From: Chitiniphilus shinanonensis DSM 23277
GTDB taxonomy: Bacteria > Pseudomonadota > Gammaproteobacteria > Burkholderiales > Chitinibacteraceae
DNA: 64,000 nucleotides
NCBI RefSeq assembly: GCF_000374805.1
Contig: NZ_KB895349.1
Location: forward strand, 1 to 64,000
Reading direction: 5' to 3'
In this document: positions 1,741-34,152 of the stretch, in pieces
Numbering within the stretch: the stretch's first letter is position 1
Layout: each line of letters opens with the position of its first letter
Notes under the pieces: model-generated
Told to the model about the DNA's origin: nothing
Database searches by the model: none
Seen by the model: only the letters and a program-made list of their open reading frames with translations
Program-made: the position numbers and the translations under genes

Positions 1741-2772
1741 TCACCCCCAATACCCCACCAACCCCAGCTCCCGCAACGCCGCATCCAGATAGCGCCGGTC
1801 GAACCAGCTTTCGACGTCGATCGGTTTGCGGATCAGCCGGTGTTGCAGGGCCACGGTGGCGGCCTGGCGGGTGCGCTGGGCCAGGCCGGCGTCGAGCAGT
1901 GGCGAGAAGCGGTCGGCGAGGGCGATGCCCTGGTATTCGCGGCGGTAGGTGGCTTCCGGCACGGCGCCGGCGGAGGCCCACAGCTTGAACACTTCGTCGC
2001 GGTGCGCGGGGTCGCTGGACCATTGCGCGGCGCGCAGCAATGCCTTGACCACGCGGGTGGTGGCTTGCGGGTGCTGCCGGGCGAATTTCTGGTTCACCAG
2101 CACGAAGCCCTGGCCGATGGGGCCGGCCTCGGTGCGTGAGCTGTAGACCAGCACGGCGCGTCCGCTATCGCGGAAGTTGACCAGTTCCAGGCTGCCGAAT
2201 ATTGCGTCCACGTCGCCGGACAGCAGCGCCGCCTTGGCGGTGCCGGGCTCCATGTTGATCACGCGCACGTCCTTTTCGCTCAGGCCATGGGCGGCGAACA
2301 GGCGTGCCGCCGCCAGCTGGGTGGCGGTGCCCTTGTGGTAGGCCACCCGCTTGCCGCGCAGGTCGGCGATGCCGCGGATGCCGGCGCCGGGCCGTGCCAC
2401 CACGTAGACGTCGGCGCGCGCGCTGCCGAGGATGGCGCGGGTATCGACGCCCACCGAGCGGCTGACGATGGCGGGCAGGTCGCCCAGGGTGGTGAAGTCG
2501 AGCTGGTTGTTGGACACCGCCTCGTTCACCGCCGGCCCCTGGCCCTTGAAGAAGATCCACTCGATCTTCACGCCGTCTTTGGCGAACTCGTTTTCCAGAT
2601 AACGATGCAGCTGCGCCACCGAGATCCAGCCGGTATTGACGCGCGGCGGCTTGCCGACGCCGGCGCTGGAGATGCCGAAGCGGATCACCTCGGGCAGCTG
2701 CTCGGCGGCGTGCAGGGGCGTGGCCAGGGTGGTCAGCAGCGCCAGCGCGGCGGCGACGATCGATTTGAACAT
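1741..2772 (-). CDS. ABC transporter substrate-binding protein, aliphatic sulfonate (SsuA/NMT1) type
   Basis: 343 residues. A Sec signal peptide ends near TPLHA|AEQ (residue 22). The mature part has the SsuA/NMT1 fold landmarks: IRFGISS at the first strand, QLDFTTLGDLPAIVSRS, GKRVAYHKGTATQLAAA and DVDAIFGSLE. It should deliver sulfonates or related sulfur compounds in the periplasm to an ABC importer. It lies 70 bp downstream of an LLM monooxygenase on the same strand, a pairing typical of organosulfur acquisition. No permease or ATPase gene accompanies it here, so the partner is elsewhere or shared. An AGGACC sequence precedes the ATG. Substrate is inferred from family and neighbour only. 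Confidence 0.85.
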   Translation of the reverse strand: MFKSIVAAALALLTTLATPLHAAEQLPEVIRFGISSAGVGKPPRVNTGWISVAQLHRYLENEFAKDGVKIEWIFFKGQGPAVNEAVSNNQLDFTTLGDLPAIVSRSVGVDTRAILGSARADVYVVARPGAGIRGIADLRGKRVAYHKGTATQLAAARLFAAHGLSEKDVRVINMEPGTAKAALLSGDVDAIFGSLELVNFRDSGRAVLVYSSRTEAGPIGQGFVLVNQKFARQHPQATTRVVKALLRAAQWSSDPAHRDEVFKLWASAGAVPEATYRREYQGIALADRFSPLLDAGLAQRTRQAATVALQHRLIRKPIDVESWFDRRYLDAALRELGLVGYWG

Positions 2773-2842
2773 GGTGGTCCTCGAAGTCCCCGGCGGGGCC
2801 GGGGACGGTTGCTTTCGATGCGTTGGGTTGAGCGGCAGACGC

Positions 2843-4219
2843 TCAGCCCGCCGCCAGTGCCGGCGCCGCCTCGCGCGCGGCGGTGGCCGTTGCGACGAAG
2901 CGGTTGTCCGGCCGCGCCAGGCCCAGGTTGTCGCGCAGGGTGTGGCCTTCGTAGGCGGTGCGGAACAGGCCGCGCCGTTGCAGTTCGGGCACCACCAGCT
3001 CGACGAAATCGTCCAGCCCGCCCGGCAGCCACGGCGGCATCACGTTGAAGCCGTCGGCGGCGCCCTGCTCGAACCACGATTGCAACTGGTCGGCCACCTG
3101 CTCGACGCTGCCGACCACGGTCCAGTGGCCGCGCGCGCCGGCCACCCACAGGTAGAGCTGGCGGATGGTGAAGCCGTGCTGGCGGGCGATGGACAGCATC
3201 AGCGCCTGCCGGCTCTTCATGTTCTCGGTCTCGGGCAGTTCGGGCACCGGGCCGTCCAGGTCGTAGCGCGACAGATCCACGCCGCCGGCCAGGTTGGACA
3301 GCAGCGACAGCCCGACTTCCGGCAGGATCAGCGCCTGGAGTTCCTCGTACTTGCGCTGGGCCTCTTCCTCGGTGCGACCGACCACGGCGAACACGCCGGG
3401 CATGATCAGCAGTTGCTCGGGGCGGCGGCCGTGATGCGCCAGCCGGCCTTTCACGTCGGCGTAGAAGGCGCGCGCTTCCTCCAGCGTCTGCTGCGCGGTG
3501 AAGATCACCTCGGCGGTTTCGGCGGCGAATTCCTTGCCGGTGTCGCTGCTGCCGGCCTGCACGATCACCGGGTGGCCCTGCGGCGGGCGCGGCACGTTGA
3601 GCGGGCCGCGCACCGCGAAGTGCTTGCCGGCGTGGTTCAGCTCGTGGCGCTTGGCCGGCTGGTAGAACTGGCCGCTGGCCTGGTCGCGCACGAAGGCGTC
3701 GTCCTCCCAGCTGTCCCACAGGCCCTTCACCACGTCGACGAATTCGCGGGCGCGGTCGTAGCGGTCGGCGTGCGCCGGATGCTGCGCCAGGCCGAAGTTG
3801 CCCGCGGCGGTGCCCGAGCCGGTGGTGACCACGTTCCAGCCGGCGCGGCCGGCCGACAGGTGATCGAGCGAGGCGAACTTGCGCGCCAGGATGAACGGGT
3901 CCTCGTAGGTGGTGGAAGCGGTGGCGACGAAGCCGATGCGCTCGGTGACCACCGACAGCGCCGAGAACAGCGTCACCGGCTCGAAGCTGCCGCCCCACGC
4001 CTGCTTGCCCTCGGCGGCGGCGGTGGCGCCGTAGCCGGCGGCCAGGCCGTCGGCCAGGAACAGCGTGTCGAACAGGCCGCGCTCGGCGGTCTGCGCCAGC
4101 CGTACGTAGTGGGCCAGGTTGATGGCGCCGTCGGCCTGGGCTTCGGGGTGGCGCCAGGCGGCGACGTGGTGGCCGGCGCCGGGGATAAAGGCGCCGAGGC
4201 GGATCTTGCGTTGGCTCAT
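2843..4219 (-). CDS. LLM-class flavin-dependent monooxygenase (NtaA/SnaA/DszA type)
   Basis: 458 residues from the ATG at 4219, which follows AGGGAGC; the frame stays open further upstream but without a better start. It begins with the family pattern RKIRLGAFIPGAGHH...AAWRHP and contains LAQTAERGLFDTLFLADG, GRAGWNVVTT and HPVIVQAGSSDTGKEFAA, all characteristic of the NtaA/SnaA/DszA branch of luciferase-like monooxygenases. These use FMNH2 from a separate reductase to oxidise sulfur or nitrogen heteroatoms or C-S bonds. With the adjacent sulfonate-type binding protein it probably releases sulfur from an organosulfur compound. The FMN reductase is not in the window. It is divergent from the radical SAM gene across 292 bp that must hold both promoters. 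Confidence 0.88.
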   Translation of the reverse strand: MSQRKIRLGAFIPGAGHHVAAWRHPEAQADGAINLAHYVRLAQTAERGLFDTLFLADGLAAGYGATAAAEGKQAWGGSFEPVTLFSALSVVTERIGFVATASTTYEDPFILARKFASLDHLSAGRAGWNVVTTGSGTAAGNFGLAQHPAHADRYDRAREFVDVVKGLWDSWEDDAFVRDQASGQFYQPAKRHELNHAGKHFAVRGPLNVPRPPQGHPVIVQAGSSDTGKEFAAETAEVIFTAQQTLEEARAFYADVKGRLAHHGRRPEQLLIMPGVFAVVGRTEEEAQRKYEELQALILPEVGLSLLSNLAGGVDLSRYDLDGPVPELPETENMKSRQALMLSIARQHGFTIRQLYLWVAGARGHWTVVGSVEQVADQLQSWFEQGAADGFNVMPPWLPGGLDDFVELVVPELQRRGLFRTAYEGHTLRDNLGLARPDNRFVATATAAREAAPALAAG

Positions 4220-4511
4220 GATGCTCCCTGCTGTTGGAAGGCCCCTGGGATGGGGCGGTGCGCTGATACAGCAAGCGGCATGCCACAGTTGATATCGAAG
4301 TAGAATCAATGGGTTGTGGCGACGCGATGTTGCGATCGCAGCAATGGGCGCCACACGCTGCTGGCGCCGCAGCACGCCGTGCCGCCCGGCAACGCCCGGC
4401 CCGGCGCGTGGCGGGCTCTGGCACAATGGCGCGCCGGTCCGCCCGGTGGTTTTTCCGAATTCTTCTCGCTGCCGGTGCGCGGCCCTCGCCCATCGGCGCC
4501 AAGGTTTTGCC

Positions 4512-23994: not shown

Positions 23995-24610
23995 GGGGCG
24001 GCGGATGGGCGGGACGGTGTCCGATGGTGCCGCAGCGGCACGGCGGGCCGCAAGCGCGGCCGATGGTTGCGGCGATGCCGGACCGATGCCGGACCGCGCC
24101 TTCGCGCATGGCCGCGGGCGACGCTGGCGTGAGCGGCCGCGCCGGGCGATCCATCGCACCGCGCGTACGTCGACGGGCGCTGGCGCATCCATCCGTCGGC
24201 GTGGCGCGACGCCGACCAGTGGCGGCGGACAGGGCGGTTGGTTTCCTTGTGGCTTTCTGGGCTCATCAGCCAACGCGGCCCGGCTTGCGCCGCGTGGCGC
24301 GACACGGCGTCTCGCCGTGTCATCGGCCCGGTTGGCGGCGGATTGCACGCATCGACTTCCTACACGGCAATGACAATAACATCATTCTCTAATGACGACG
24401 TTCATCAGCTTTCAGTAGGTATCTGAAATTTAAAGGCTGCGCCCGCGTGGGCATGACATAGCGTGGATCGGTCATGCGCATGGCATGAAGCAGCGCGCTA
24501 CGACCTTCCACGGCGAGCGTCGCCTCGGCGCGCCGCCGCCGCGCCCGAAGGCCGCTCGCCCGCGATATCCGACTCCCGGGGCCATGGCCCCGCATGCAAG
24601 GAGCAACAAC
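23995..24610. other. Intergenic region, 616 bp, no supported gene
   Basis: The left two thirds are GC-rich and open in several frames but without RBS or recognisable protein. A perfect GACACGGCG/CGCCGTGTC hairpin lies at about 24301-24321. From 24360 to 24445 the DNA turns AT-rich (AATGACAATAACATCATTCT, then TCTGAAATTTAAAGG), the likely promoter of the next gene. Confidence 0.4.
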
Positions 24611-26356
24611 ATGGGCAAGTTCACTGTTCTGGAGGCGGGCCTGACCCGCTTCGACCTGGACAAGGTCATCGCGCTCGGCCGGCCCTGTCGGCCGCGCATC
24701 CTCGTCGTCACCGAGCCGAGCCTCAACTACCGCCCCAATTCCGACTTCGGGCTGTGGCGCTTCCTGCACGGCCTGACGGTGGCCGCCGGCGTGACCAACA
24801 AGCCGGTGCTGACGCTGGCCTACCGCGGCTCGCACAGCCCCGCCAGCATCGCCATCGAGGACGACAGCTACACCATCGCCAACAACTTCAACTTCGCCAC
24901 CGCCAGCCCGGCGGTCACCGTGGCCAACTACGACCAGATCTGGCTGTTCGGCATCGCCGACGGCCCGGCGCTGCCGGACAACCAGGTGCAGGTGATCGCC
25001 AACTTCATGAACGCCGGCGGCGGCGTGTTCGCCACCGGCGACCATGCCACGCTGGGCAACGGCCTGTGCGGCGACCTGCCGCGCATCCGCCGCATGCGCG
25101 AATGGAGCGCCATCCCGATGGGCATCGAGGACGACGTGGACACCGCGGTGCAGCGCATCGACACCGTGGTCAATCCCGGCGCGGGCGGGGTCTACGAGTT
25201 CGACGACCAGTCGGACAACATCCCCCAGCGCATCTATCCCAACTACAAGGTCACGCCCAGCGGCAGCCTGTGGAAGGCGGAGATCCATCCCCTGCTGCGC
25301 CTGCCGGGCGGCACCCTGGTGCGTACCGAGGGCACGGGCGTGGATGCCCTGTTCGCCAACGACATGGACGTGCTGCCCGACCACCCGCACGAAAGCATCT
25401 GCCGTGTGCCCAGCGCATCGCAGCTGGACGACACGTACACCCGCACCAATCCCGACTTCGCCGAATTCCAGCCGTCGGCGGCCACGCCGTCCACGCGGCA
25501 GAACGCCGAGATCGTGGCCTACGCGGTCTCGGGCGGGCGGGCGATCTACCGCGTCGGCTACTGGAAGCCGCCGGTACGACCGCGCATGTTCGGCGTGATC
25601 AGCGCCTACGACGGCCGGCTGGCCCAGCCCTACGCCGGCCAGACCCAGCGTCCGGGCCGCATCGTCTGCGACTCCACCTGGCACCACTACGTCAACACCA
25701 ACCTGGACGCCACCGGCACCAGCCGCACCGGCCTGGGCGTGTGGTCCGGCGGCACCCCGGGCAGCGGCACCTTCACCCCGTCGGCCGACCTGGAGAAGAT
25801 CTACGGCTACTACCGCAACATCGCCGCGTGGCTGCAACCGGCCAACCGCGTGTGGTGCCGCCTGCTGTGGGATCTGGTGGCGGTGCGCTTCAACGCCAAG
25901 CTGATCGAGGAACTGCTGGAAGTCGACCGCCTGCGCAACTGGCGCGACCTGGTCGGCCTGGGCCGCGAGGCGGCGCAACTGATCGGCAAGGAACGCGGCC
26001 CCGGCTTCGCCGAGGCACTGATCGACGACGTGCTGTCGCTGGACGAACAGAGCGGCGGCCTGGCCGACGCCCTGCGCGCCGACCTGCTGGGCGACACCGA
26101 TCTGGATACGCTGTCGCTGCGCCACGGCGTGCTCGGCGCGTTGCTGGCGCACTTGGCGCAGGAGCTGCCGCCGCATGACGACGCCGCGGCGTTCAAGGCG
26201 CTGTCGCGCGGGGTGGACAAATTGGTCAAGCCGCTGGCCGCCGTCGCCCAGAGCGCGCTGCAACAGGGCCTGGACGACCAGGCCAGGCGCACCGAACGCA
26301 CCCTGGCCGTACTCAAACGCCGCGCCCCGCCGGTCAAGACGCGTGGCAAGGAGTAG
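24611..26356 (+). CDS. Orphan protein with possible class I glutamine-amidotransferase-like N-terminal fold
   Basis: 581 residues, family not recognised. The ATG at 24611 follows AAGGAG at 7-8 bp; a longer frame upstream is GC-rich and basic and unlikely to be translated. Residues 28-140 alternate strand and helix: RILVVTEPSLNY, PVLTLAYRGS, YDQIWLFGIADG, then VIANFMNAGGGVFATGDHAT. This resembles ThuA/GATase1-like folds, where a sheet-edge loop carries a G-x-F-x-G-D-H motif. The middle is rich in Pro, Thr and Asp. The last 150 residues are helical and charged (WRDLVGLGREAAQLIGKERG, FKALSRGVDKLVKPLAAVAQ). No signal peptide. It stands alone with its own AT-rich promoter and a hairpin after the stop, so it is probably real. 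Confidence 0.7.
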   Translation: MGKFTVLEAGLTRFDLDKVIALGRPCRPRILVVTEPSLNYRPNSDFGLWRFLHGLTVAAGVTNKPVLTLAYRGSHSPASIAIEDDSYTIANNFNFATASPAVTVANYDQIWLFGIADGPALPDNQVQVIANFMNAGGGVFATGDHATLGNGLCGDLPRIRRMREWSAIPMGIEDDVDTAVQRIDTVVNPGAGGVYEFDDQSDNIPQRIYPNYKVTPSGSLWKAEIHPLLRLPGGTLVRTEGTGVDALFANDMDVLPDHPHESICRVPSASQLDDTYTRTNPDFAEFQPSAATPSTRQNAEIVAYAVSGGRAIYRVGYWKPPVRPRMFGVISAYDGRLAQPYAGQTQRPGRIVCDSTWHHYVNTNLDATGTSRTGLGVWSGGTPGSGTFTPSADLEKIYGYYRNIAAWLQPANRVWCRLLWDLVAVRFNAKLIEELLEVDRLRNWRDLVGLGREAAQLIGKERGPGFAEALIDDVLSLDEQSGGLADALRADLLGDTDLDTLSLRHGVLGALLAHLAQELPPHDDAAAFKALSRGVDKLVKPLAAVAQSALQQGLDDQARRTERTLAVLKRRAPPVKTRGKE

Positions 26357-29597: not shown

Positions 29598-29972
29598 ATG
29601 GATATCCAACGCATGATCGATCTGCACATGAAATGGAAGGCGCGCTTCGAAACCGCGCTGGCGCAACACATCTGGCTGGACGCGGGCGCCATCGCCGTCG
29701 AGAAGGGCTGCCGTCTGAACAATTGGCTGCACAGCGAAGGCCGCGCCCGCTATGGCTACAGCGACGCCTGGAAGGAGTGCGTTCGCGCGCACTCGCAGTT
29801 CCATCGCCAGGCCGCCTACGCGGTACAGCAGATCAACAATGGCAGCGCCTCGGCCGAGGACATCCTCGGCACCGCGTCGCCCTACGAACGCGCGTCGCAG
29901 GAACTGGAGCGCACCCTGGTCCGGCTGCGCCAGAGCGGGCGGCACGACCAGCACGGCGGCATGGCGGCCTGA
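29598..29972 (+). CDS. Stand-alone CZB (chemoreceptor zinc-binding) domain protein 1
   Basis: 124 residues and nothing but a CZB four-helix domain with a short tail. The 3His/1Cys zinc site is complete: H10 (DLHMKWK), C38 (KGCRLNNWL), H65 and H69 (HSQFH). In chemoreceptors and diguanylate cyclases such as DgcZ, CZB domains sense zinc or hypochlorous acid through the Zn-bound Cys. Here the domain is free, without receptor, GGDEF or membrane part. AGGAGA precedes the ATG. Its TGA stop is also the left target-site copy of the adjacent MITE. Two paralogs follow within 3 kb. The usual C-terminal LGxW is LNNW here, making it the most divergent of the three. Confidence 0.9.
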   Translation: MDIQRMIDLHMKWKARFETALAQHIWLDAGAIAVEKGCRLNNWLHSEGRARYGYSDAWKECVRAHSQFHRQAAYAVQQINNGSASAEDILGTASPYERASQELERTLVRLRQSGRHDQHGGMAA

Positions 29973-30144
29973 GAGCCTGTTCGAGATCGTTTCGCGGCAG
30001 CGCCGGGCCCTTCGGGTGCGGGGCATTGCCGGCGCGCTGCCGCGTTGCACGCCGCGCACGGTATGCATACCGCCGCGCGTTCTGCGCCTTGCCGCGCACC
30101 GGCACTGCCCCGGACGCCGTCGCGAAAAGATTTTCAACAGGCTC
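29973..30144. mobile_element. MITE-like element 1
   Basis: 172 bp. Terminal inverted repeats of about 30 bp begin GAGCCTGTT and continue through ATC and TTTCGCG (left) versus ATCTTTTCGCGAC (right, reversed), with a few mismatches. It is flanked by a 3-bp direct repeat TGA (29970-29972 and 30145-30147). The interior is GC-rich and palindromic around CGGTATGCATACCG, without coding capacity. TIR length, TNA-type target duplication and size suggest a remnant mobilised by an IS5-group transposase, though no such gene is in the window. It landed exactly on the stop codon of the CZB gene, restoring it through the duplication. Confidence 0.8.
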
Positions 30145-30300
30145 TGAGCGGCCCGCAACGACCGATGGGCACCCCACCCGCCAGGAAAGTAGCGGCGGGG
30201 TGAAAACCGGAATCTATCGATAAACCTGGATGGTCCAGGCGCGGGGACGATTGTCCGTCCCCGCAGCCGGGCTGTCCCGTCAGCAGTTGGAGTGAACACC

Positions 30301-30654
30301 ATGGATCTGAACGTTGCCCTCAAGGCCCACGGCGAGTGGCGCCTCAAGTTCAGGATCGCCATCGGCAAACAGCAACACCTGGATGCCCGGCATATCGCCG
30401 CCGACGACTGCTGCCCGCTGGGGCAATGGCTGCACGGCGAGGCGCGCAAGCATTTCTCCGACCTGCCCGCCTATACCGAATGCCTGCGCCAGCACGCGCT
30501 GTTCCATCGCGAGGCGGCCAAGGTGGCCAATTCCATCAACGCCAAGCGCTACCGCGAGGCCGAAGTGATGCTGCTGCCCGGCTCGGCCTACGCCCAGCAC
30601 TCCACGGCCTTCGGCGTGGCGGTGATCCGCCTGCGCAGCCAGTTGTACAGCTGA
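30301..30654 (+). CDS. Stand-alone CZB domain protein 2
   Basis: 117 residues. Zinc site at the same positions as paralog 1: H10 (KAHGEWRLKF), C38 (ADDCCPLGQWL), H65 and H69 (RQHALFH). The canonical LGxW motif follows the Cys, and an extra Cys37 sits beside the ligand. The C-terminal helix (LLPGSAYAQHSTAFGVAVIR) closely matches paralog 3. The ATG at 30301 is preferred over the GTG at 30292, which abuts the GGAG. It probably folds as a four-helix bundle dimer in the cytoplasm; no output domain is present. Shares its converging end with the outer-membrane protein gene. Confidence 0.92.
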   Translation: MDLNVALKAHGEWRLKFRIAIGKQQHLDARHIAADDCCPLGQWLHGEARKHFSDLPAYTECLRQHALFHREAAKVANSINAKRYREAEVMLLPGSAYAQHSTAFGVAVIRLRSQLYS

Positions 30655-30681
30655 CGCGCGGGCGTGCCCGTTGCCGGGGCC

Positions 30682-31788
30682 TCAATGCCAGGCGCTGCCG
30701 ACCTGGAAGTAGAACGCGTTGTCGTCCTGGCTGCGGGCCACGTCGATGCCCACCGCCAACCCCAGCTTGCGGGCGATCAGGTAGCGGAAACCCACGCCAG
30801 CGCCCCAGGCGTCGTCGGCGTCGGAGAAATCCTGCCAATGGCCCCAGGCGCGCCCCACGCCGCCGAACGCCAGCACCGACCAGCGCGGCACGAAGGTCCA
30901 GCGCAGCTCCATTTCGCCGGTCAGCGTGTACTGGTCCTGGTAGCGCCCCTTGGGCAGTCCGCGCAGCGAGACGAAGGGCTGGGCGTAGAACGGCACGTCG
31001 CCATCGGTGGCGCGGCCGTCGATGCGCAGGCCCAGGTTCCAGGTCTTGTCCAGCGGCAGCCAGGTGAAGGCGCGCAATTCGTAGGTGTCGAAATCGCGCG
31101 AGCTGCCCAGCCAGTCGCGCGCGGCCTGCGCCTCGATCTCCATGTAACTGCCGCGGGTGGGGTAGAACATGTTGTCGCGGCTGTCGTAGTCGATCACCAG
31201 CCCGGCCTTGCCCACCGCCAGATCGCGGCTGATGTTGCCCAGCTCGTTGGCGATGGCGCCGGTGAAGCGGGTGTCGAGGTCGAAGTAGGTATAGCGCGGC
31301 CCGACGAACCAGCGGCTGTCGCCCAGCTTGACCAGCAGTTGCTGCACCAGCCCCCAGCCGTCCAGCTCGTAGGCGCGCGGCTGGTCGGAGACGCCGTAGT
31401 AGTTGGTGTTGAGGTTGATCTTGCCCAGCCCGCCCAGGTAGCGGTAGCGGTCGCCGCCCCAGGTGCGGAAGTGGAACAGCCCGGCGCCCCAGGTGCCGTT
31501 CTCGGTGGCCATGCCGCCGACGCCGGTGATGTTGGGCGGCTGCATGATGCCGGTTTCCTTGGCGTGGGCATTGGCCTCGGCCATCGATTCGGAGAAGAAC
31601 AGCAGCATGGCGCCGCCGCCGTAGCCCACCGCCGGCTCGGTGATGAGGATAGGCACCGGCAGGAAGCCCTTGCGTTCGAGCAGGTAGTCGCTGGCGTCGA
31701 AGGCGCCGTCCTGCGGATCGCGGAAGCCCTCGGCGTGGGCAAGGCCGGCGAGCAGGCTGCACAGCAGGGCAAGGACGGCACGACGCAT
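30682..31788 (-). CDS. BamA/TamA-family outer-membrane beta-barrel protein
   Basis: 368 residues. Signal peptide MRRAVLALLCSLLAGLAHA, then a glycine- and aromatic-rich barrel of the bacterial surface antigen (Omp85 C-terminal) type: GYGGGAMLLFFSESMAEANA, DYDSRDNMFYPTRGSYMEIE, QPFVSLRGLPKGRYQDQYTL (the VRGF-like loop 6 motif is VSLRGLPKGRY) and WGAGVGFRYLIARKLGLAVG. It ends FYFQVGSAWH, with an unusual His at the very end. No POTRA domains precede the barrel, so it is not a full BamA. Located between CZB genes but on the opposite strand; a functional link is not shown. Confidence 0.88.
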   Translation of the reverse strand: MRRAVLALLCSLLAGLAHAEGFRDPQDGAFDASDYLLERKGFLPVPILITEPAVGYGGGAMLLFFSESMAEANAHAKETGIMQPPNITGVGGMATENGTWGAGLFHFRTWGGDRYRYLGGLGKINLNTNYYGVSDQPRAYELDGWGLVQQLLVKLGDSRWFVGPRYTYFDLDTRFTGAIANELGNISRDLAVGKAGLVIDYDSRDNMFYPTRGSYMEIEAQAARDWLGSSRDFDTYELRAFTWLPLDKTWNLGLRIDGRATDGDVPFYAQPFVSLRGLPKGRYQDQYTLTGEMELRWTFVPRWSVLAFGGVGRAWGHWQDFSDADDAWGAGVGFRYLIARKLGLAVGIDVARSQDDNAFYFQVGSAWH

Positions 31789-32004
31789 CGGGAGGGTCTC
31801 GGAGGATGGTGCTCCAGTATGGCCGCCCGGTGCGGGACCGCCAGGGCGATCGATTCGCCCTCGTGCCGGGATGTCGCGCCGCCTGGCGGCTCGCCATCGT
31901 CATCATTGACCTGATGCAACGGGCCGGGCGGGCTTTGCGCGCATGCTGGCCCATTGACGAAATGGCGAAGCCGCGTCCAGGCGCGGCGGCCCGAGGAGAC
32001 TGCG

Positions 32005-32358
32005 ATGGATTTCGATCACGCGATCATGGCGCACGCCGAATGGCGTCTCAAATTCACCCTGGCCATCGGCCGGCAGGAAACGATCGATGTGGCCCACGTG
32101 GATGCGGACGACTGCTGCGCGCTGGGCACCTGGCTGAAGGGCGACGCCCGCCAGTTGTTCGGCAAGCTGCCGGCCTGGCGCGATTGCCAGGCGCTGCACG
32201 AGCGTTTCCACCACGAAGCTGCCAAGGTGGCGACCGCCATCAACGGTGGCCATTACCACGAGGCGGAAAAGATGCTGCTGCCCGGCTCCAGCTACTGCCA
32301 GGCGTCGAGCGAGCTGACCGGAGCGCTGAACCAGTTGCGCGAGCAGGCGGCGCTGTAG
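32005..32358 (+). CDS. Stand-alone CZB domain protein 3
   Basis: 117 residues from the ATG at 32005 (GAGGAG at 6 bp). Zinc site in the same register as the paralogs: H10 (MAHAEWRLKF), C38 (ADDCCALGTWL), H65 and H69 (ALHERFH). About half of its residues match paralog 2 by eye, including the C-terminal EKMLLPGSSY segment, so the two arose by duplication. Nothing but the CZB domain is encoded. Two type-A hairpins follow its stop. Confidence 0.92.
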   Translation: MDFDHAIMAHAEWRLKFTLAIGRQETIDVAHVDADDCCALGTWLKGDARQLFGKLPAWRDCQALHERFHHEAAKVATAINGGHYHEAEKMLLPGSSYCQASSELTGALNQLREQAAL

Positions 32359-32376: not shown

Positions 32377-32797
32377 GGGCGCTGAAAACTGAAACCTGTA
32401 GACACAGAGCGCGGGGAGTACACAGAGCACACAGAGAAAACCAAACCGGAAATTCTGTTTTCCCAGGTTTCCTGATTTGGGGTTTCTCCGTGCTCTCTGT
32501 GTGCTCCCCGTTCTCTGTGTTCCCAGATTTGAATTTGCCTTTCCGGCCTACCCCGCCAGCTTGGCCGCGGCGTCGCGCAGGGCGGTGAAAGGCGCTAAAA
32601 ACCTGTAGACACAGAGGGCGGGGAGCACACAGAGCACACAGAGAAAACCAAACCGGAAATTCTGTTTTCCCAGGTTTCCTGATTTGGGGTTTCTCCGTGT
32701 TCTCTGTGTGCTCCCCGTTCTCTGTGTTCCCAGATTTGAATTTGCCTTTCCGGTCTTTCCAACCTACCCAGCCAGCTTGGCCGCCGCGTCGCGCAGG
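32377..32797. repeat. Tandem duplication of 207-216 bp carrying two type-A hairpins and a gene end
   Basis: Two units, about 32377-32586 and 32586-32797. Each contains GTAGACACAGAG, GGGGAG, an AGAAAACCAAACCGGAAATT centre, the returning arm, and then a copy of the last 35-40 bp of the lipoamide dehydrogenase gene (CAGCTTGGCCG, GCGTCGCGCAGGGCGGTG). Only the right-hand unit is joined to the real gene; the left carries a detached copy of its 3' end at about 32549-32590. The few differences between units, including one 9-bp indel, suggest a recent event. Confidence 0.92.
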
Positions 32798-34152
32798 GCG
32801 GTGCGCAGGCCCTCTTCGATCACCGGGTGGTAGAACGGCATGTCCAGCATCTGGGCAATGGTCAGGTCCATCTGTCGTGCCCACGCCAGGGTGTGGGCGA
32901 TGTGCTCGGCGCGCGGGCCGATCCATTCGGCGCCGAGGAAGCGGCCGGTGCCGCGCTCGGCGTACACGTGCATCAAGCCCTTGTTCTTCAGCATCACCCG
33001 GGAACGGCCCTGGTTCTCGAAGCTGACCTCGCCGATCACCGCGTCGGCCGGCAGGTCGGCGAAGCGGGTGCCCACGGTGGCGATCTGCGGATCGCTGAAC
33101 ACCACGCCGAGGGTGGCGCGGCGCAGGCCGGCGCTCACCTCGGGATAGCTGGAGGCGTTGGCGCCGGCGGTCTTGCCCTCGTCGGCGGCCTCGTGCAGCA
33201 GCGGCAGGATGTTGTTGGCGTCGCCGGCAATGAACACCGGCGAGGCGCCGCATTGCAGCGTGGCCGGGTCGAACAGCGGTACGCCGCGCGCGTCCAGTTC
33301 CAGGCCGGTGTTCTCCAGCCCCAGGTTGGCCACGTTGGGTCGGCGGCCGGTGGCGGCCAGCACGTAGTCGAAGCGCTCGGTGACGATTTCGCCGTCGAGG
33401 CGGGCGTAGCGGATCACCACTTCGTCGCCGTCGCGCTGCATGTCCTCCACCCTGGCATCCGGGTCGAGGTAGAACTGTTCCTGGAACGCGGCGGTGGCGT
33501 AGTCGCGGATGGCCGGGTCGGACAACGGCCCGACGCCGCCGCCCACGCCGAACACGCGCACGATCACCCCCAGGCGGGACAGCGCCTGGCCCAGTTCCAG
33601 GCCGATCACGCCGGGGCCGAACACCGCCACGCGGCGCGGCAATGCGTCCCACGAGAACACGTCGTCGTTGACCACCAGCCGGTCGCCCAGCGCGCGGAAC
33701 GGCGGCGGCACCGCCGGGCTGGAGCCGGTGGCGATCACCACGCGCCCGGCGCGCAGCTGGAGGTCGTCGCCGACCTGGAGCGTGGTGTTGTCGACAAAAC
33801 GGGCGTAGCCGCGCAGGCGGTCTTCGGCCGGGATGCCGTCCACCGATTCCAGCACGAAGCCGACGAAGCGGTCGCGCTCGCGGCGTACCCGTTCCATCAC
33901 CGCGCGGCCGTCGATCACGATCTCGCCGTCCACCCGCACGCCGAACGGCGCGGTGTGGCGCAGTTCGTGCGCGGCTTCGGCGGCGGCGATCAGCAGCTTG
34001 GACGGCATGCAGCCGACGCGGGCGCAGGTGGTGCCGTAGGGGCCGCCCTCGATGATCACGGTGCGCTTGCCGGCGGCGCGCGCGGCACGGTAGGCGGCCA
34101 GGCCGGCGGTTCCGGCGCCGATTACGGCGACATCGACATTCATCTGTTTCAT
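32764..34152 (-). CDS. Dihydrolipoyl dehydrogenase-type flavoprotein disulfide reductase
   Basis: 462 residues from the ATG at 34152 (AAGGAG at 7 bp). FAD site [17 protein letters not shown], redox disulfide in [15 protein letters not shown] (both Cys present, but Ala-Arg-Val replaces the usual Leu-Asn-xx), NAD site [20 protein letters not shown], second FAD site VFIAGDANN, and a His-Glu pair near the C-terminus ([10 protein letters not shown]) where most have HPTxxE. It resembles the stand-alone lipoamide dehydrogenases found outside the 2-oxoacid dehydrogenase operons, so its partner could be another disulfide. Its 3' end has been tandemly duplicated together with a hairpin. Confidence 0.88.

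Follow-up and report, generated by a model that had tools for sequence, protein, structure and literature searches.

The window analysed here, a 64,000-nucleotide stretch of Chitiniphilus shinanonensis DSM 23277 (contig NZ_KB895349.1, positions 1–64,000; assembly of 4.15 Mb in 42 contigs; genus Chitiniphilus, Betaproteobacteria), contains three genes, CZB1, CZB2 and CZB3, each encoding a protein that consists of a stand-alone CZB domain. Whole-genome searches yield exactly three CZB matches, the three genes of this trio, alongside 35 matches to the methyl-accepting chemotaxis protein (MCP) domain and 34 matches to the GGDEF domain, and the trio is again all that a CZB3 protein query or a 15-row profile recovers from the genome; since Pfam overlooked CZB1 of the related species C. 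eburneus, the Pfam CZB counts are lower bounds, and a very divergent additional CZB is possible. What is unusual is the presence of three free CZBs side by side without any fused CZB match in the genome. According to the hypothesis that we favor, tentatively and with less than even confidence, the trio are zinc or oxidant sensors that act in trans, most likely on chemoreceptors. A genome in which the CZB matches are three stand-alone copies offers a clean setting for analysis of free-CZB function, since the outcome could not be obscured by a fused CZB receptor.

The preliminary description of this DNA, made from the sequence alone, claimed three separate CZB-only genes encoding 117–124 residues, with a zinc site of H10, C38, H65 and H69 in identical register, and both claims hold. 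All three proteins exceed the Pfam cut-off for PF13682 (29.4 bits; Table 1), and no second Pfam family is matched in any of them at E ≤ 0.01, making each a single-domain protein. None of the three matches PF00015 (MCP), and thus none has the domain content of a TlpD-like chemoreceptor; none matches PF00990 (GGDEF), and thus none has the domain content of a DgcZ-like diguanylate cyclase (DGC). The closest NCBIfam model, DgcZ, scores 25–31 bits with the trio, against a cut-off of 256. The four ligands are in register in CZB1–3 and in all C. eburneus orthologues. By the predicted models of CZB1 and CZB3, the first CZB helix is where the proteins start, and a purine-rich, ribosome-binding-like stretch lies 5′ of each of the three starts; for CZB2 and CZB3 the starts in the list of open reading frames (ORFs) are GTG at 30292 and TTG at 31954, and the ATG codons at 30301 and 32005 are preferred from the C. 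eburneus orthologues. CZB1 and CZB2 are spaced by 328 bases, and an opposite-strand Omp85-type gene lies between CZB2 and CZB3; promoter and terminator scans at the locus gave nothing clearly over chance. The three genes are likely to be separate transcription units.

CZB-only proteins are a class known in print, and the trio are members of it. The preliminary description presented free-standing CZBs as unusual, a view that the counts do not sustain: CZB-only proteins made up 27.1% of 10,140 CZB sequences in a 2021 survey (PMC8262984, in excerpt), and 25 of 94 CZB matches in this genome and its relatives (found in 42 of 100 genomes) lie in open frames shorter than 200 aa, two of these near contig ends, a share that agrees with the published one. 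The survey's authors caution that some CZB-only sequences may be incomplete, and the excerpted text gives no function for CZB-only proteins (PMC8262984). A broader genome search gave a match tally of 142 of 399 genomes.

To place the trio among its relatives we used a tree of 109 CZB rows (from 115 distinct hits, after removal of six short or truncated rows) and 117 columns, in which many forks are unresolved and in which many rows had been retrieved for their resemblance to stand-alone CZBs. Rows were labelled stand-alone by our own MCP profile and GGDEF/EAL motifs, with Pfam spot checks; one row so labelled (L144; L171:5884–6738) is by Pfam a CZB fusion to a pentapeptide-repeat protein. A weakly supported branch (78/84) has on one side 34 MCP, 7 DGC and 1 stand-alone rows, and on the other a 65-row clade (99/90) that contains the trio and comprises 60 rows labelled stand-alone, 5 fused to MCP and none labelled GGDEF. 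Within this clade the trio falls in an 18-row subclade (95/91) made up of 17 rows labelled stand-alone plus an MCP tail, L099, which, like L100, is verified by Pfam as MCP-CZB. By its position in this tree, the trio is part of an old, mostly stand-alone lineage. The six CZB rows of the two Chitiniphilus species form one group in the best tree, with support of 75/13, which does not establish a local triplication. Multiple CZB genes also occur side by side near the trio's subclade: two adjacent genes at L135/L164 and, on a Methylococcales contig (L101), a single-CZB gene (2762–3286) and a tandem two-CZB gene (3379–4230).

The trio's subclade is marked by a second cysteine, C61, that the preliminary description overlooked. 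All six Chitiniphilus CZBs carry C61 in the arrangement C61-x3-H65-x3-H69, a single helical turn ahead of H65. Across the tree C61 is present in 16 of 109 rows, comprising 16 of the 18 in the subclade and none of the 91 elsewhere, where the position is occupied by Leu, Val, Ile, Met or, rarely, Ala. Two subclade rows do not have C61: L112, in which C38 and H65 have been lost too, and L102. Both nest among the C61 rows, and monophyly of the C61 rows is rejected (approximately unbiased test, p-AU 0.0099). At least three changes are needed to account for C61 on the tree, and its history fits, without proving, one gain and two losses. In the predicted model of CZB3 (predicted local distance difference test, pLDDT, 95.8), a single helix, residues 56–80, carries C61, H65 and H69, and residues 61, 65 and 69 should face one side of that helix. 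Our literature search, which did not cover full texts, found no two-cysteine CZB variant of the C61 type.

CZB1 diverges at position 41, a point also unnoticed in the preliminary description. The glycine of the CxLGxW motif is present in CZB2 and CZB3, and is replaced by Asn41 in CZB1 and by Ser in C. eburneus CZB1. Glycine occupies this site in 55/56 other stand-alone rows, 40/40 MCP rows and 7/7 DGC rows, and is described as almost universal for steric reasons (PMC8262984, in excerpt). Because CZB1 retains the ligands and C61, and because its model is confident (pLDDT 92.0) save for the final ten or so residues, an altered response seems likelier than loss of function. A further residue to which the preliminary description drew attention, the Cys37 shared by CZB2 and CZB3, is indeed present in both proteins in the window; it is ruled out as a conserved feature by Arg37 in C. 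eburneus CZB2.

The preliminary description allowed that the three genes might be decaying fragments of larger receptor genes. In C. eburneus all three CZB genes are present with their order kept and with their neighbors kept, from the TauE and ABC exporter genes through the peroxiredoxin-glutaredoxin gene (CZB3 match, NZ_SUMF01000013.1, 82080–82430), and the orthologues are 69% (CZB1), 64% (CZB2) and 86% (CZB3) identical. Ratios of nonsynonymous to synonymous substitution rates (dN/dS; own script) are 0.25, 0.32 and 0.18, respectively, compared with 0.09–0.25 for eight neighbors, the ratios for CZB1 and CZB2 being rough at a dS of ~0.9. Decay of former receptor genes could claim in its favor the missing Gly41 of CZB1 and the faster evolution of CZB1 and CZB2 (dN 0.24–0.28, vs. 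0.02–0.10 in the eight neighbors); against it stand the intact ligands, the ribosome-binding-like sites, the confident models, the conservation of the trio and its order, the dN/dS values and the mostly stand-alone lineage, and we consider it scarcely credible. In a third Chitiniphilus species we found neither a CZB (searches with the CZB3 protein and the 15-row profile) nor a counterpart of the Omp85 gene (E ≤ 1e-20) or of the ABC exporter (E ≤ 1e-150). We conclude, from the syntenic orthologues, the dN/dS values and the mostly stand-alone clade in the tree, that the trio are genuine genes under purifying selection, and neither receptor debris nor chance ORFs.

According to the hypothesis that the trio are sensors acting in trans, CZB1–3 would be diffusible, cytosolic, single-domain zinc sensors, each holding one Zn2+ through H10, C38, H65 and H69; loss of zinc, caused either by falling labile zinc or by oxidation of the zinc thiolate, would change the shape or dimer state of the CZB; and the protein, having no output domain, would exert its effect in trans, the likeliest partner being a chemoreceptor/CheA complex and a less likely one a diguanylate cyclase. 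In known CZBs the oxidised zinc cysteine becomes a sulfenic acid (PMC8262984, in excerpt). C61 leads to a different chemical prediction for the trio, a disulfide in place of a sulfenate: oxidation of C38 would end in a C38–C61 disulfide, giving a reversible two-cysteine zinc switch. We infer all four elements of this proposal, zinc binding, redox switch, partner and output. Published work provides precedents for parts of it: a 2026 preprint argues that, for a CZB receptor, zinc availability itself conveys the redox message (PMC13370339, in excerpt), structures of TlpD in another preprint show a link between a distorted zinc site and the receptor's kinase end (PMC12871147, in excerpt), and in Campylobacter the receptor Tlp9 operates together with Aer1 and Aer2, both PAS-only, which sets a precedent for a split sensor (PMC9665402, in excerpt). 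In the tree, MCP fusions in the trio's clade point to a chemoreceptor as the likeliest partner. On a Planctomycetota contig, a stand-alone CZB gene (L114:118–480) overlaps an MCP gene (477–1952) by 4 bases, a pair that, judged by its gene layout, is a natural two-gene sensor-receptor module; at L054 an MCP gene adjoins a CZB gene. The MCP fusions in close relatives and the one CZB/MCP gene overlap make plausible the suggestion of the preliminary description that free CZBs act in trans on a receptor. Chitiniphilus comprises chitin-degrading isolates from soil and water, and for this reason the cue is more likely to be the overall redox or zinc state than bleach from neutrophils.

Several observations weigh against the proposal that the trio are trans-acting sensors. 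No partner gene lies beside the trio, and, within its scope, the literature search found no functional study of, or wet data on, a free CZB. L102 lacks C61 yet retains the ligands. No recurrent partner was found by Pfam among 90 neighbor proteins of stand-alone CZBs (MCP, 2; GGDEF, 3; EAL, 2; cation efflux, 2, one of them placed, at L171), and to this extent the idea of a conserved gene partner adjoining stand-alone CZBs is rejected; the negative is weak, the 90 being mostly the nearest neighbor per side from 180 neighbors picked by an ORF chooser that can take wrong frames in GC-rich DNA, with one gene (L043/L103) counted twice and the Chitiniphilus locus excluded. Finally, at L171:2973–4312 a CZB gene lies 17 bases 3′ of a cation diffusion facilitator (CDF) zinc-transporter gene on the same strand. 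This last arrangement would suit the main rival explanation, that the trio are zinc buffers or donors, binding cytosolic Zn2+ and giving it up again, perhaps under redox gating, with no dedicated signalling partner. The absence of both an output domain and a recurrent partner gene argues in the same direction, multiple copies would fit, and the zinc affinity of DgcZ is subfemtomolar (PMC8262984, in excerpt). Binding as tight as this would, however, better fit a sensor; the MCP fusions and the MCP gene overlap in the trio's clade are evidence for a receptor partner; and the divergence of CZB1 at Gly41 suggests different tasks for the three copies. We regard the buffer explanation as unlikely, though deserving serious attention. 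Regulation in trans of cyclic di-GMP enzymes instead of chemoreceptors would draw on the 34 GGDEF matches in the genome, the GGDEF domains in 3 of the 90 neighbors, and the standing of DgcZ as the closest NCBIfam model, albeit far under its cut-off, and of its CZB as the best solved relative; the 7 DGC-fused CZBs group apart from the trio, however, and the 5 fused proteins in the trio's 65-row clade are MCPs, leaving this explanation rather improbable.

A further alternative is that the trio docks on a split receptor, a soluble TlpD-like receptor with a ligand-less CZB-like tail. The genome encodes a soluble MCP of 389 aa (C1:115255–116421; L184:1756–2922), most of which can be aligned with the family's TlpD-like MCP-CZB receptors (best E, 1.3e-36). 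Five such receptors were found, in this genome, in C. eburneus (an orthologue, 54% identical) and in three species from a different genus within the family (L184, L192–L195). In 5/5 all four ligand columns are changed and the motif Trp is present, and the tails contain 0–3 His and 0–2 Cys at other positions. In 28 TlpD-like comparison receptors the Cys and both later His are present in 28/28 and the first His column is retained in 24/28, a retention that is partly by construction, the receptors having been picked by CZB profile. Two Chitiniphilus species have both the receptor and the trio; in the third, searches at the chosen thresholds detected neither. The alignment, the changed ligands with retained Trp, and the co-occurrence within Chitiniphilus are as a split receptor would have them. 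Against this, the three other receptor-bearing species have no free CZB, so that only two of five have one, both in one genus; four genomes of the family, G008, G028, G034 and G038, have free CZBs and no such receptor at E ≤ 1e-36; and, taken alone, the tail shows weak kinship to CZB (12.4 bits). A split receptor is in our judgment improbable, and the receptor is a candidate partner for the trio, the co-occurrence being too thin to prove a pairing. It is conceivable, as a long shot, that three C38/C61 CZBs of differing sensitivity serve as exchangeable sensors that dock on the ligand-less receptor; if so, a single receptor would read several zinc or oxidant thresholds.

Table 1. Positions in the window of the three CZB genes, their C61 codons and the intervening Omp85-type gene.
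Feature	Position	Strand	Description
CZB1	29598–29972	+	124 aa; stand-alone CZB; H10, C38, C61, H65, H69; Asn41 at motif Gly; PF13682, 37.7 bits
CZB2	30301–30654	+	117 aa; stand-alone CZB; H10, C37, C38, C61, H65, H69; PF13682, 34.9 bits
CZB3	32005–32358	+	117 aa; stand-alone CZB; H10, C37, C38, C61, H65, H69; PF13682, 35.2 bits
C61 codon of CZB1	29778–29780	+	subclade signature
C61 codon of CZB2	30481–30483	+	subclade signature
C61 codon of CZB3	32185–32187	+	subclade signature
Omp85-type outer-membrane protein gene	30682–31788	−	PF01103; between CZB2 and CZB3; same place in C. eburneus

The Omp85-type gene is probably a neighbor of the trio and not a functional part. In six other genomes of the family that were examined, Omp85 occurs without CZB genes, and the trio's neighbors are absent from its surroundings save for one weak ABC match; a linked role is rejected accordingly. 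Identification of the dihydrolipoyl-dehydrogenase-like neighbor as RclA is likewise rejected (105.8 bits; cut-off, 740). Between CZB1 and CZB2, at 29969–30148, is a 180-base element with inverted ends, a dispersed repeat with 65 matches in the genome, many of which are incomplete or hit a single site on both strands. At 32392–32803 are two 158-base copies, 97% identical, of a palindromic, CACAGAG-rich repeat, beside which the 3′ end of the dihydrolipoyl-dehydrogenase-like gene is duplicated. At 24485–26356 is a 623-aa ORF with no Pfam match at E ≤ 0.01, the C. eburneus counterpart of which has 86% identity and a dN/dS of 0.17.

Within the scope of the literature search, the following are new: a CZB repertoire consisting solely of three stand-alone paralogues, a subclade marked by C61, a CZB1 that lacks the motif Gly, and the presence in this genome of a TlpD-like receptor without the zinc ligands. 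The best solved relative of the trio by sequence is the N-terminal CZB of E. coli DgcZ (PDB 3t9o and 4h54; E, 0.00028), and the same domain (3t9o) is the top Foldseek match (probability 1.00; TM score 0.75; E, 0.021) at an identity of just 18%; a VIA-align Z of 11.9, compared with 11.2 for a chemoreceptor ligand-binding domain, is indecisive, as are values below ~13 for helical bundles in general, and the structural match does not by itself decide the fold. DgcZ differs from the trio in having a GGDEF domain. TlpD-type soluble chemoreceptors, with a C-terminal CZB, share domain and ligands with the trio, and differ in having an MCP domain, which the trio lacks, and in falling in a different region of the tree. 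In the published CZB-only subgroup the residue following the zinc cysteine is not Arg (PMC8262984, in excerpt), a feature shared by two of the three proteins (Ala in CZB3, Pro in CZB2; Arg in CZB1); the trio departs from that subgroup in being three adjacent copies that are the genome's sole CZB matches, in having C61, and in the absence of the motif Gly from CZB1. Campylobacter Tlp9 (CetA), with PAS-only Aer1 and Aer2, provides a similar mode, in which a lone sensor domain acts in trans (PMC9665402, in excerpt); Aer1 and Aer2 are PAS proteins with a reported interaction, whereas the trio are CZB proteins known from sequence, and the likeness is one of mode, with no claim of kinship.

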